A stretch of DNA of 64,000 bases from Clostridia bacterium (GTDB taxonomy: Bacteria; Bacillota; Clostridia; Christensenellales; Aristaeellaceae), in the NCBI GenBank assembly GCA_017501255.1, contig JAFVXE010000052.1, positions 1 through 64,000 on the forward strand, given 5' to 3'. How positions within the stretch are numbered: position 1 is the first letter of the stretch; every line of letters begins with the position of its first letter. A model generated the notes under the pieces. It was not told the DNA's origin. It searched no databases and saw nothing but the letters and a program-made list of their open reading frames with translations. Below, piece after piece: positions 24,232 to 28,442 of the stretch. The translations under genes and the position numbers were made by a program.

Positions 24232-24680
24232 AGTTCTTCCTCCTTCGTATCCACTGGTTTACGCATAGAAAACAGCGCAGAACCGATACCTGTACCCATA
24301 ACAATCATCAAAATCAGGCTCATGGCCTGCACAGCCGTTTTGGCACCCAGGGTCATATCTCCCTGACCCATGGCGCTCATGGCCCGATACAGGCCGATTC
24401 CCGGCACCAGCGGCAGGATGGCGATGGTGACAAACACCGTGGAGATCATGTGCAGCTTTCTGGCAGCGACCTGCCCCAGAGCAGCCGCCAGCAGCGCCGC
24501 CACAAACATGGCCGGCAATTCAGCGCCGGTCAGCTGAAAAATGAGCCAGTATGCCGTATAGCCCAGCGAACCGATGGCTGCATCCCACAGGATGCCCTTT
24601 TTGGGGGCGTTGAGCAAAGCGCCGAAACCGGCTGCTCCCAGATACCCGGACACAATGGCCCGAAGCAAGCCTTCCAGCAT
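24228..24680 (-). CDS. Threonine/serine exporter, C-terminal-type subunit (ThrE_2)
   Basis: 150 residues, five membrane helices. The start is the ATG at 24680 with AGGAGG nine bases upstream; its A is the last base of the previous stop (TGATG). The LPLVPGIGLYRAM motif is typical of the small half of split ThrE exporters (DUF3815). It overlaps the downstream gene by four bases. Confidence 0.85.
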   Translation of the reverse strand: MLEGLLRAIVSGYLGAAGFGALLNAPKKGILWDAAIGSLGYTAYWLIFQLTGAELPAMFVAALLAAALGQVAARKLHMISTVFVTIAILPLVPGIGLYRAMSAMGQGDMTLGAKTAVQAMSLILMIVMGTGIGSALFSMRKPVDTKEEEL

Positions 24681-25444
24681 CACAGAACGCCTCCTATCCA
24701 TCCAAAGACCGCCGTGCCAATCAACGCACCGCCAGCCACAAGCGCTGCCGTCAGCAATGCCCGGGCACCATGAGCCGTACCGGACACCATATCTCCCCGG
24801 ACTACATCCAGCACCGCATTGGTCATACTCAACCCCGGCACCAGCGGCATCAGCGCACCGGCAACCATGGCATCCACAAGCCCCAGCCCGGTGATATGAT
24901 GAAACACCAGCGGCAGCAATGCTGAAATGGCGCTGCCCAGCACCAGCTTGATCATATTGTCATGCTGCCAGGACCAGACCCAGGGGATCATCTGGGTCAG
25001 TGCAGCCGCAATGGCGCTGATGACCATCTCCCACAGGGAACCTTCAAACATCAGCGCAAAACCAAGGGCTGTCAACGCAGCTGTCAGCGGTGCGTGCCAA
25101 CGGGAATGCGCCGCTGGTTTGGATAATTCCGTCAGTTTCACCAATAGTTCATCACCGGTGATGTCGCCCGCGCTTAACTGGCGGCTCAGCTGATTGACCG
25201 CATCCACCCGGCTCAAATCCGTATCCCTGCCATGCATACGGCACACGGAGGTTTGCCGCTCCCCCTGAGCATCCGTAAAGGAGATAAACAGACCGCTGGG
25301 CACGCCAAAAGCATCCGGTTCCTTCAGCCCCATGGCTTTTGCCATGCGGAAGATGGTATCCTCTGCCCGGTAGGTCTCGCCTCCGTTTTCCAGAATGATG
25401 CGCCCAGCCAATGTGAGCACTTTGATCTGCCCTGCGGTGGTCAT
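24680..25444 (-). CDS. Threonine/serine exporter, N-terminal-type subunit (ThrE)
   Basis: 254 residues from the ATG at 25444 with AGGAGG seven bases upstream. The cytoplasmic N-terminal half has the GGETYRAEDT and FGVPSGLFISF motifs of the ThrE/DUF1212 family. The C-terminal half has about five helices with LMPLVPGLSMTNAVLD. It pairs with the adjacent ThrE_2 subunit to export amino acids such as threonine or serine; the actual substrate in this organism is not known. It is first gene of a four-gene operon. Confidence 0.88.
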   Translation of the reverse strand: MTTAGQIKVLTLAGRIILENGGETYRAEDTIFRMAKAMGLKEPDAFGVPSGLFISFTDAQGERQTSVCRMHGRDTDLSRVDAVNQLSRQLSAGDITGDELLVKLTELSKPAAHSRWHAPLTAALTALGFALMFEGSLWEMVISAIAAALTQMIPWVWSWQHDNMIKLVLGSAISALLPLVFHHITGLGLVDAMVAGALMPLVPGLSMTNAVLDVVRGDMVSGTAHGARALLTAALVAGGALIGTAVFGWIGGVL

Positions 25445-25484: not shown

Positions 25485-25513
25485 AGTATAGCAAAGCCTG
25501 CGATGGAAAGCAA
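25485..25513 (-). promoter_or_regulatory. Promoter for the ThrE operon
   Basis: On the minus strand TTGCTT (25508-25513) and TATACT (25485-25490) are 17 bp apart, with TGC before the -10. The left target duplication of the insertion sequence begins only five bases upstream of the -35. Confidence 0.6.
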
Positions 25514-25517
25514 GGGA

Positions 25518-25542
25518 AGGGAATGATATGCAAAAGGAGCGG
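25518..25542 (+). repeat. Left copy of 25-bp direct repeat (target duplication)
   Basis: The 25 bases starting AGGGAATGATATGC and ending GGAGCGG recur exactly at 26696-26720, immediately outside the other end of the insertion sequence. One further A (25517 and 26695) also matches, so the repeat is 25-26 bp depending on where the element ends. Confidence 0.85.
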
Positions 25543-25644
25543 TGTAGCGTTACAATAGATGTGAGACTGAGGGGTAGAAAAAAGGCGAGAGAGTCTGTTA
25601 GAATAGAGCTACCACACACCAAACTAACAAAGGACTCAAACGCC

Positions 25645-26616
25645 ATGAATAGTATAGCACAAACCAAACGGTATTTACCACATGAAATGAGCACTAAGAT
25701 CAATTCAGTGAAGTTGTATCGCCAAACCAGGGATATTGGCTTTGTGGTAAGGAGATACCATATCTCCAAGGCTTCGCTAATGCGCTGGAACAAGCAGTAC
25801 GACGGGACAAGAGAATCGCTGTTACCCAAATCGCATAGGCCGCACAGCCAACATCCGAATGCCCATACGGAAGAAGAGCTAAAGTGTATACGCAATTACC
25901 ACAGGCGAAATCCCAATATCAGCGTATGTGAACTCTATGGAAAACTCTTGCAAGATAAGGCATATAGTCGCCACCCAGGTTCCCTTTACCGAGTATTCAT
26001 ACGTCTTGGCTATCGAAAAAAGGTGGAATCGACAAAGAAAAAATCAAAGCATAATGGGCATTACGACACCCCTACAGAACTTGGTGTGAAGTGGCAGCTG
26101 GATGTGAAATACGTTCCTCAAGCGTGCTACGCAGGCAAAGATGATGAAAGATTCTTCCAGTATACGATGCTGGAGGAAGCCAGTCGAGAACGCTTCATCT
26201 ACGCATACAAAGAGCAAAGCGGCTTCTCAACTGTAGATTTTGTCAAACGTGCAATTGTCTACTTTGGCTATGCACCTCATACGATCCAGACAGATAATGG
26301 ATCGGAGTTTTGCAACAGTCAAAAGACAGATCGCATCCATATATTTGATTTCTTTTGTATGGAGAATGGGATCATTCACAAGCAGCTTCGCCCCAAAACG
26401 CCCTGGCACAACGGCAAAGTTGAACGGAGTCACCGCAACGACCAGGAACGGTTCTATAATTACCTGCGCTTTTACTCCTATGATGATCTTCAGCATCAAA
26501 TGAAGAATTACCTTCGTCGCTCAAATCGTATCCCCATGGCGGTACTCGGTTGGAAATCACCCATTCAGCGAAGAAAAGAGCTATTACCGGCACTTCTGGA
26601 AACGCTATTTGGGTGA
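25645..26616 (+). CDS. DDE transposase (IS481/IS1202-like, rve catalytic domain)
   Basis: 323 residues from the ATG at 25645 with AAAGGAC upstream. An N-terminal helix-turn-helix (about 10-50, VRRYHISKASLMRWNKQY) is followed by a second helical domain. The integrase core comes next: Asp in KWQLDVKYVP, Asp in IQTDNGSEF and Glu in NGKVERSHRNDQERFY make the DDE triad, so it is probably active. The stop codon lies inside a perfect 42-bp palindrome. Codon use is more AT-rich than the neighbouring genes. Confidence 0.9.
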   Translation: MNSIAQTKRYLPHEMSTKINSVKLYRQTRDIGFVVRRYHISKASLMRWNKQYDGTRESLLPKSHRPHSQHPNAHTEEELKCIRNYHRRNPNISVCELYGKLLQDKAYSRHPGSLYRVFIRLGYRKKVESTKKKSKHNGHYDTPTELGVKWQLDVKYVPQACYAGKDDERFFQYTMLEEASRERFIYAYKEQSGFSTVDFVKRAIVYFGYAPHTIQTDNGSEFCNSQKTDRIHIFDFFCMENGIIHKQLRPKTPWHNGKVERSHRNDQERFYNYLRFYSYDDLQHQMKNYLRRSNRIPMAVLGWKSPIQRRKELLPALLETLFG

Positions 26617-26649
26617 GGGGAAGGGGTTAACCCCTTCCCCTCACCCAAA
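26608..26649. repeat. Perfect 42-bp palindrome across the transposase stop
   Basis: TTTGGGTGAGGGGAAGGGG is followed by TTAA and then the exact complement, with no mismatch. It contains the transposase TGA and lies 46 bp inside the right end. It can form a very stable hairpin in RNA but has no T-run, so it is not a standard terminator. It may stop incoming transcription or protect the mRNA end. Confidence 0.85.
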
Positions 26650-26695
26650 CTCAGACTCCCTCGTTTCTTGGTCTCACATCATTGACAAATGTACA

Positions 26696-26720
26696 AGGGA
26701 ATGATATGCAAAAGGAGCGG
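26696..26720 (+). repeat. Right copy of 25-bp direct repeat (target duplication)
   Basis: Exact copy of 25518-25542. It contains one arm of the terminator hairpin of the gene ending at 26744, so the original site was that terminator. Confidence 0.85.
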
Positions 26721-26737
26721 CCATCGAACCGCTCCTT
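26707..26737 (-). terminator. Terminator of the polytopic membrane protein gene
   Basis: AAGGAGCGG and CCGCTCCTT form a 9-bp stem, followed on the minus strand by TTTTGC. The insertion sequence duplicated half of it, but the complete hairpin remains on the gene side. Confidence 0.7.
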
Positions 26738-26743
26738 CACGCA

Positions 26744-27988
26744 TCAGAACGCATTTCCCGTACTGAGCATAAACACGAAATATTCCACTGTGGACGCCAG
26801 ATGCCAAAGCAGAATCCCCACAGCCACAACCACCAGCACCTTGCGCCAGAGCGCCGCTTCTTTCCACTGCTGCCTGAGCATTCCTGCGAATTTGCCCAGC
26901 ATCACCGCCCAGAAGAAGTAAGAGGAGCTCATGGTGGCCCAGCCAAAGTTGCCATGACCCGCACGCATACCGGTTTCCCGGAAGAAGGCCACCTCCAGCA
27001 TACTGATGAATACCATCAGCACTGCCAGCAACACATGGCGGTCTTTGAACATTCCTTTGTGCCAGCAGCAAGCCAGAGCCGCCAGTGGGAAGGCATTCAT
27101 CATCAGCATGGTGCGGAAGGCTTCCCACAGGGTCTGCGCCGTAGCGCCAAATTCCACGCCGCTGGTATAGGGCACCACCACGCCGGTATAGTACAGATAT
27201 TGCACCAAAAAGCAAACCACGGCAGGAATGAAGGCCAGCACGATCTGGCCGAAATAGCGCCAGTTGCGGGGTCTGCGGCAAAGCTCCACCAGATACATCA
27301 GAAAGGCCGCGGGCAAAAAGGCCTGCATCACCGTAGGCTTGCACATCAGATTCAGAATCAGCAGCGCCGCCAGACCAAATACCTGCCACCAGGGCAGCAT
27401 GGTATCGTCGCCGCCTTCGGGCAGTTTTTTCTCAAAGGAATCCCAGCACCATACCAGATAGGGCACCACGATCATCATCGTGGAAATGACTGCCTGCTGA
27501 GTGGGATTGTGCCATACATTGGGGGAACCATTCACAAACCGGTATACGCTGAGCCCCGTGTCGTTGGGCAGATTGACGCCGGTGACCACAAACATGAAAA
27601 GCGCACACAAGGCCAGCCAGAAGGTCTTGATTTTGCCACCGCTCATCCGGTCCAGAAGCCGGTAGGTCATCACAAAGGTGAGGGCTCTGAACAGCGTGCA
27701 GATGATCGACCCTGCCCAGTCGATGGGCGTACCCAGTTGGTAGAGAATCGCCACCAGCACGTGCCACAGCGGGTAAGCGATGCGGCTGGTGATGGAATGC
27801 AGATCGGTAAAATCAAAGTCCACCGAATAGCTGGCGTGAATCTGCAAATCAATCTCCGTGGGCAGGCGGCTTTCCCAAAGGAACATGGACAGCGCAAACA
27901 GAACAGCTGCCACTGCCGCCAGCACAAACCAGCCGCTGCACCAGATGTTCCGCCGCTGATTCTCTCGATTTGCCGTAATCTCTTGCAT
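26744..27988 (-). CDS. Polytopic membrane protein of unknown function
   Basis: 414 residues from the ATG at 27988, seven bases after GGAGGG. One N-terminal helix (about 20-40) is followed by an outer loop with hydrophilic residues (about 45-75), then about nine to ten more helices. The long outer loop after the first helix, with a YPLWHVLVA segment, recalls membrane glycosyltransferases of the GT-C type and DUF6056-like proteins, but I see no diagnostic DxD or similar motif and do not assign a function. It stands alone between two terminated units. Confidence 0.6.
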   Translation of the reverse strand: MQEITANRENQRRNIWCSGWFVLAAVAAVLFALSMFLWESRLPTEIDLQIHASYSVDFDFTDLHSITSRIAYPLWHVLVAILYQLGTPIDWAGSIICTLFRALTFVMTYRLLDRMSGGKIKTFWLALCALFMFVVTGVNLPNDTGLSVYRFVNGSPNVWHNPTQQAVISTMMIVVPYLVWCWDSFEKKLPEGGDDTMLPWWQVFGLAALLILNLMCKPTVMQAFLPAAFLMYLVELCRRPRNWRYFGQIVLAFIPAVVCFLVQYLYYTGVVVPYTSGVEFGATAQTLWEAFRTMLMMNAFPLAALACCWHKGMFKDRHVLLAVLMVFISMLEVAFFRETGMRAGHGNFGWATMSSSYFFWAVMLGKFAGMLRQQWKEAALWRKVLVVVAVGILLWHLASTVEYFVFMLSTGNAF

Positions 27989-28091
27989 TTGAACTCCCTC
28001 CATACAGGTGAAGTGTCTCCGTTTTTCATCCTTGGCAGTTGGATGCCAAGGGGGAATGATAGCGGATTGCATTGCATCCGTCAAGAGCCTG

Positions 28092-28442
28092 TCAGCCCTC
28101 CGCCACCCACTGTTTCCAGACATCCTCATTGGCGCCCACGGTCACTTTGCTGCCGTTGCGCACAATAGGACTGACCAAAGCGGCAGGATCGTTGAGAAGC
28201 TCCGCCACAATCAGGCTGTCCGTGGACATATGCGCCACGGGACGCTCCAACGCCTTCTTGCCTTCCCGGTCCACCAGCGCACGGGCGCTGCCCGCTGCCC
28301 GGATGAACAGCTCCAGTTCCTTCCTGCCCAGCTTGTGTTTTTTCAAATCCATCATCTGGTAGGGAATGCGACGCTCCTTGAAGAAACGCTCCGCCTTGAG
28401 CACATCGGGATTCTTCTTGTTCACATAGATCTGAATATTCAT
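28092..28442 (-). CDS. ArsC/Spx-family protein lacking the catalytic cysteine
   Basis: 116 residues, the normal size of ArsC/YffB-like proteins. The fold is recognisable: KAERFFKERRIPYQMMDLKK near the N-terminus, SPIVRNGSKVTVGANEDVWKQW at the C-terminus. Where thioredoxin-fold relatives have a cysteine (typically KKCxDT), this protein reads KKNPDV, and it contains no cysteine at all. It therefore cannot work as a thiol reductase. Its ATG overlaps the stop of the DnaI-like helicase loader gene (ATGA), so the two are translated together. A protein-binding role is possible, as Spx binds RNA polymerase, but this is inference. Confidence 0.8.
   Translation of the reverse strand: MNIQIYVNKKNPDVLKAERFFKERRIPYQMMDLKKHKLGRKELELFIRAAGSARALVDREGKKALERPVAHMSTDSLIVAELLNDPAALVSPIVRNGSKVTVGANEDVWKQWVAEG

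Follow-up and report, generated by a model that had tools for sequence, protein, structure and literature searches.

The 64,000-nucleotide stretch of contig JAFVXE010000052.1 analysed here (hereafter the window), from a Clostridia bacterium, carries an insertion sequence (IS) of 1153 bp at positions 25543-26695, which is present in one copy only in its genome. Judged from its sequence, it is complete and belongs to an IS481-like clade whose target duplications measure 25-27 bp. Members of this clade very probably insert upstream of sigma-A promoters at a constant distance and in a constant orientation, the presumed landmark being promoter-bound RNA polymerase. In the window, the target reads TTGCTT-N17-TATACT on the minus strand (25513-25485) and is likely to be the promoter of a putative ThrE-type gene, whose name comes from the sequence-only reading that preceded this analysis. 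That reading remarked in passing that the left copy of the duplication started five bases from the ThrE -35. The promoter is indeed adjacent, but the gap is of four bases, and this side remark was the real clue. It had also named Xer-like sites as possible targets; what recurs in the flanks, in which no systematic search for Xer or dif sites was made, is a sigma-A promoter.

Relatives of the element were gathered from species genomes, from the family, order and phylum of the host, and from genomes known to hold copies, and their transposases shared 35-80% amino acid identity with that of the window. Ends were picked first by inverted-repeat similarity, and duplications were measured afterwards. 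Among 31 distinct insertions, the duplication measured 25 bp in 13, 26 bp in 14, 27 bp in three and 14 bp in one, and a further copy (L012) had a 24-bp duplication. The sequence-only reading had called the length in the window unusual and had named short duplications in relatives as evidence that would count against it. It was observed that 30 of the 31 detected duplications were of 25-27 bp, the 14-bp copy being the single short one, and that the behaviour was the same in members sharing as little as 35-45% identity with the transposase of the window.

When the empty sites were rebuilt, most presented a TTGACA-like hexamer, 17 bases and a TATAAT-like hexamer on the left side, on the strand leaving the IS. 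In 23 of the 31 sites, the best sigma-A promoter had a gap of exactly 4 bp between its -35 and the duplication (0.36 expected, P ~1e-38), and at this offset it pointed away from the left end of the IS. A promoter score of at least 10 at offset 4 was reached in 21/31 sites; random positions within these loci reached it in 0.07% of cases, shuffles in 0/1550 and mirror positions on the right side in 2/31. The aligned target flanks shared both hexamers and the extended -10 TG, with little else. The same placement was found in left-end junctions without a usable duplication, most of which had played no part in the discovery: of 62 junctions not used for it, 46 had their best -35 28-31 bp away from the left end. 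Altogether, 70 of 90 left-end junctions had their best -35 within this range (7.7 expected, P ~1e-56), against 8 of 50 right-end junctions (4.3 expected). It could be argued that insertions occur anywhere and that only those just upstream of promoters survive as harmless, and the observed position does appear, from the sites, to leave promoter and gene intact. Survival alone is very improbable as an explanation, since it accounts neither for the single-base offset (23/31 at exactly 4 bp, and 34/36 at exactly 0 bp in the IS1202-like set considered below) nor for the fixed orientation, and sites further upstream, or downstream of genes, should then be equally used.

The -10 hexamer was informative as to what is recognized. 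It was found at 16-18 bp in 82% of the targets with a -35-like hexamer (score at least 3), against 3.5% of background positions matched for -35 score; with the most stringent -35 threshold, the figures were 83% for targets and 13% for the background. Since the -10 co-occurs with the -35 far above background, the whole promoter is marked, not the hexamer alone. These values bear on the alternative that the transposase itself reads a -35-like sequence (TTG/CAA), or the promoter bend or DNA shape, without RNA polymerase. Such direct reading would agree with TTG varying least within the motif (69, 67 and 63 of 71 aligned sites), with the almost invariant CAA next to the cut in IS1202-like sites, and with helical N-terminal domains of DNA-binding type predicted in the AlphaFold2 (AF2) model of the transposase. 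It is nevertheless unlikely, since a reader of the hexamer would not pick sites with a correctly spaced -10 (present in 82% of targets against 3.5-13% of background), and spacers of 16-18 are tolerated.

Some observations count against oriented targeting of promoters by way of the polymerase. Eight of the 31 duplicated sites lacked a best promoter at offset 4, 20 of the 90 left junctions had no best promoter with its -35 at 28-31 bp, and around one third of the copies with good ends had no recognizable duplication. At least one copy (L271, G1103:C35) was inserted in reverse, with its right end facing a promoter at 30 bp. In addition, the promoters were predicted with a generic E. coli-type matrix and not mapped, and most of the genomes were metagenome-assembled. 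Closely related hosts are not fully independent; each counted junction has its own flank. In four plasmid copies of canonical IS481, taken as a 6-bp negative control, neither a duplication nor a promoter at a constant offset was seen, four being too small a sample to carry weight.

Unoccupied loci showed that the promoter existed before the insertion. For the window insertion, synteny was broken in the nearest congener (G009), and another insertion of the clade, in G114, therefore served for the comparison with an empty site. Two congeners, G113 and G115, had the intact counterpart locus without the IS, with the promoter TTGCCA-N17-TATAAT and the 25-bp segment present once; the sequence-only reading had raised the case of both copies already standing at an uninterrupted locus, and a single copy was what these two relatives contained. 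Upstream of the ThrE-type gene, TTGCTT and the following bases were conserved in unoccupied G009, and TTGCGT-N17-TATACT was found in G006.

A second group of elements was examined, consisting of IS1202-like members (NCBIfam ISNCY_2, 420-500 aa) from other Bacillota located by family search. The 36 insertions in this set carried duplications of 16-21 or 26-28 bp, and the -35 of the best promoter directly adjoined the duplication (offset 0) in 34 of them (0.45 expected, P ~1e-62), including GC-rich sites of G544 and the sites of four multi-copy genomes (G406, G560, G588 and G654). G588, with duplications of 26-28 bp, stood in for the original streptococcal IS1202/ISSeq2. An almost invariant CAA lay next to the cut in these sites. 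In the protein tree, the IS1202-like elements were far from the window clade, on a separate deep branch, the branches being long. Harmer et al. (2023, PMC10132070) reported that ISAjo2-type members make 5-bp duplications and lie 5 bp away from XerC sites, which places the duplication right beside the XerC site, and found no target for the long-duplication members. The IS1202-like duplications adjoin the -35 just as those of the ISAjo2-type dif-site hunters adjoin XerC sites. As an observation of its own, the tip of the right end in IS1202-like elements is itself TTGACA, followed by the duplication, often of 17 bp, an ideal promoter spacer, and an outward-facing TTGACA is also held within the right end of the window IS (26671-26695). 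With a duplication of ideal spacer length, right-end tips of this kind could create outward promoters.

In the proposed mechanism, one strand-transfer point would lie at about -39/-40, on the upstream side of the -35 hexamer and 4 bp from it, and the other 25-27 bp further upstream (about -65). By standard DDE 3'-OH chemistry, the point nearer the promoter would be attacked by the right end, and the distal point, on the other strand, by the left end. The transpososome would dock on the RNA polymerase holoenzyme as its landmark, sigma region 4 sitting on the -35, since the -35 is not conserved alone but along with the -10, which lies some 25-30 bp off. The promoter-proximal point is fixed relative to the -35 and the distal point varies by one or two bases, a pattern to be expected were the complex positioned by something bound at the -35; the AF2 model is uninformative on polymerase contacts. 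Repair of the 25-nt gaps would then copy the upstream region (about -40 to -64), giving the duplication, and with this region copied the promoter would keep its native upstream DNA and the insertion would be close to neutral. For both groups together, the balance tips slightly towards the long-duplication transposases of the IS481-like and IS1202-like lineages, which are deeply split, docking on RNA polymerase at the promoter (through sigma-A region 4 or alpha) and using it as a ruler, with the proximal transfer 0 or 4 bp from the -35 and the other 16-21 or 25-28 bp upstream, in what would be a bacterial counterpart of yeast Ty3/TFIIIB targeting.

The sequence-only reading had proposed instead that hairpins or terminators are targeted, as the duplicated target in the window contains one arm and the T-tail of the terminator of the gene at 26744. 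This overlap was confirmed, stem and T-tail being real, and four other sites overlapped a terminator-like hairpin. As a general target, terminators are highly improbable, since the overlap occurred in 5/31 targets, compared with 4/52 promoter sites used as controls (Fisher P 0.28), and in 1/36 of the IS1202-like set, with no hairpin common to the other sites. In the compact intergenic region of the window, the terminator of the upstream gene happens to fall at -40 to -64 of the ThrE promoter. Thanks to the right copy of the duplication this terminator is again entire, and the upstream DNA of the promoter is preserved in the left copy.

Regarding the structure of the element, an intact IS with a 25-bp duplication, as first described, was borne out by the exact repeats, the inverted ends and the complete transposase open reading frame (ORF). 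Both direct repeats (25518-25542 and 26696-26720) read AGGGAATGATATGCAAAAGGAGCGG and are identical at 25/25 positions. A 26th matching A is found at 25517/26695, that at 26695 belonging to the right end, as the termini are TGT...ACA. The 25-bp repeat adjoining both ends is not due to chance, because relatives bear their own unrelated repeats of 25-27 bp there. The motif GATGTGAGAC occupies positions 16-25 of both ends, just as the sequence-only reading had it. The features are collected in Table 1.

Table 1. Position of the insertion sequence, its target and the adjoining features in the window
Feature	Coordinates	Strand	Description
Insertion sequence	25543..26695	+	1153 bp; based on ends, flanking duplication and transposase
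Left copy of 25-bp target duplication	25518..25542	.	Exact match to 26696-26720
Right copy of 25-bp target duplication	26696..26720	.	Exact match to 25518-25542
Left terminal inverted repeat (LE)	25543..25567	+	TGTAGCGTTACAATAGATGTGAGAC; conserved in relatives
Right terminal inverted repeat (RE)	26671..26695	-	TGTACATTTGTCAATGATGTGAGAC read inward; holds an outward TTGACA
Transposase gene (tnp)	25645..26616	+	323 aa, DDE/rve; coding 25645-26613 plus stop; complete ORF; only gene of the IS
Palindrome	26608..26649	.	Perfect and gapless, 2 x 21 bp, centre GTTAAC; spans the tnp stop codon
-35 hexamer of likely ThrE promoter	25508..25513	-	TTGCTT; 4 bp from the duplication; from sequence and promoter scan
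-10 hexamer of likely ThrE promoter	25485..25490	-	TATACT; 17-bp spacer; from sequence and promoter scan
Putative ThrE-type gene	24680..25444	-	Driven by the targeted promoter; ATG 25444-25442, AGGAGG upstream; from ORF table
Intrinsic terminator of neighbouring gene (26744-28129)	26710..26735	-	GGAGCGG-ttcgatgg-CCGCTCC-TTTT, dG -14.3; whole again right of the IS

The palindrome near the RE has counterparts in the Gemella, Kallipyga, Murdochiella and Levyella copies, in which equally perfect palindromes of other sequence stand 56-62 bp inside the RE (46 bp in the window). Since these sequences differ among copies, it is palindromicity that is kept and not the sequence, and a two-way terminator or insulator is a possible role.

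As to its family, the transposase matched Pfam rve (E 1e-13) and rve_3, and D153, D217 and E260 were invariant among 19 aligned sequences. Its NCBIfam matches were to IS481, IS21 and IS3 models, the best being IS481 (NF033577) at 181 bits, which is below the curated cut-off of 224. The ISNCY_2/IS1202 model gave no match to the window transposase at E 1e-3, nor did a search of genome G000 with the IS1202-type model NF033594 at the cut-offs used. In the protein tree, the window clade joined four IS481-annotated plasmid transposases, apart from the IS1202-like ones, a placement to be taken with caution given the midpoint root and long branches. A likeness to the IS1202 type had been suggested from the sequence alone. 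It stood for the length of the duplication, which together with the TGT...ACA ends is that of the IS1202 subgroup with duplications of 24-29 bp, but not for the transposase, which is placed with IS481 in the tree and falls, at 323 aa, outside the 394-507 aa of the IS1202 family (PMC10132070). The residue Q267, seventh after the catalytic E260 (ERSHRNDQ), is an IS1202-family trait, but it is N in part of the relatives and thus not diagnostic. The resemblance to the IS1202 group through duplication length is superficial only. The AF2 model (predicted local distance difference test, pLDDT, 83) combined its N-terminal domains with an RNase H fold, which was nearest to IstA of IS21 (PDB 8q4d, 8b4h), retroviral integrases and TnsB.

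The duplication of 25 bp (25-27 bp in relatives, 14 bp in one) lies outside the range given for the IS481 family by Kojima (PMC10045372), mostly 6 bp and some ~15 bp. In that paper, the duplications of IS481, IS1202 and IS481EU are described as falling into ranges near 5, 15 and 25 bp, with a spacing of roughly one turn of the helix, a series that the values obtained here fit. The 14-bp duplication of L137 (G467:C85), CAAAACAATCACTT, is about one helical turn shorter than 25-27 bp. A middle clade with ~50-57% amino acid identity (L030, L033, L031, L036, L044, L046, L048, L050, L167, L170 and L178) shares a right-end-like TTGACAATTCnnCA 3' of the gene, and no recognizable left end or duplication was found in the loci examined; in L170-L172 (G1006, G963 and G760), the gene stands in ~94% identical surroundings. 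It is suggested that this clade is domesticated or has different ends. In G1168, five repeats of ~3 kb (L269 and L272-L275, with 94% identity between L269 and each other one) contain a 430-aa frame matching the IS481 model. The viral collection yielded only four relatives. Two relatives on human faecal contigs filed as phage, L280 (MT836237) and L281 (MT838633), likewise have a -35, 29-30 bp away from their left end.

For TnGBS, ISLre2 and ISKra4, all of the Mutator superfamily, it is established that insertion takes place upstream of sigma-A promoters in a set orientation, and contact with RNA polymerase has been proposed there too (PMC3942029). The TnGBS integrative and conjugative elements, the ISLre2 family and the ISKra4 group resemble the window clade in their fixed, oriented distance from the sigma-A -35. 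They differ in having a Mutator-superfamily transposase, whereas that of the window is of Pfam rve with a fold nearest to IstA and retroviral integrases, and in facing the promoter with the right inverted repeat at 13-17 bp, whereas the window clade does so with its left end at 28-31 bp and a duplication of 25-27 bp. The IS481 family gives the best profile and tree match, with a similar size and a single transposase gene, and is set apart by its shorter duplications and by the sub-threshold score. IS481EU of parabasalids is IS481-related with discrete duplications near 4, 15 and 25 bp, but it is eukaryotic and promoter targeting goes unmentioned in the available portion of its source (PMC10045372). 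The closest solved fold and sequence match, IstA, works with the ATPase partner IstB, whereas the window IS encodes one protein only. The IS1202 family shares the TGT...ACA ends, the left end turned toward the target feature and, in one subgroup, long duplications of 27-28 and 16-17 bp (PMC10132070), and differs in its larger transposase, its deep separate branch and, in the present set, a -35 offset of 0 instead of 4.

A literature search, with many subscription papers outside its reach, found no report of promoter-upstream targeting for IS481- or IS1202-type elements. The insertion place of the long-duplication IS1202-like elements examined here, left open by the 2023 paper that proposed the family (PMC10132070), is answered, and promoter targeting would be extended to integrase-type (rve) transposases unrelated to TnGBS. 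The odd duplications of 17 and 25 bp can be read simply as covering the region just upstream of the -35 while a working promoter remains. Each such IS would mark a promoter to the base, which may aid the annotation of uncultured Bacillota, and whether RNA polymerase recruits these transposases is now a direct and testable question.
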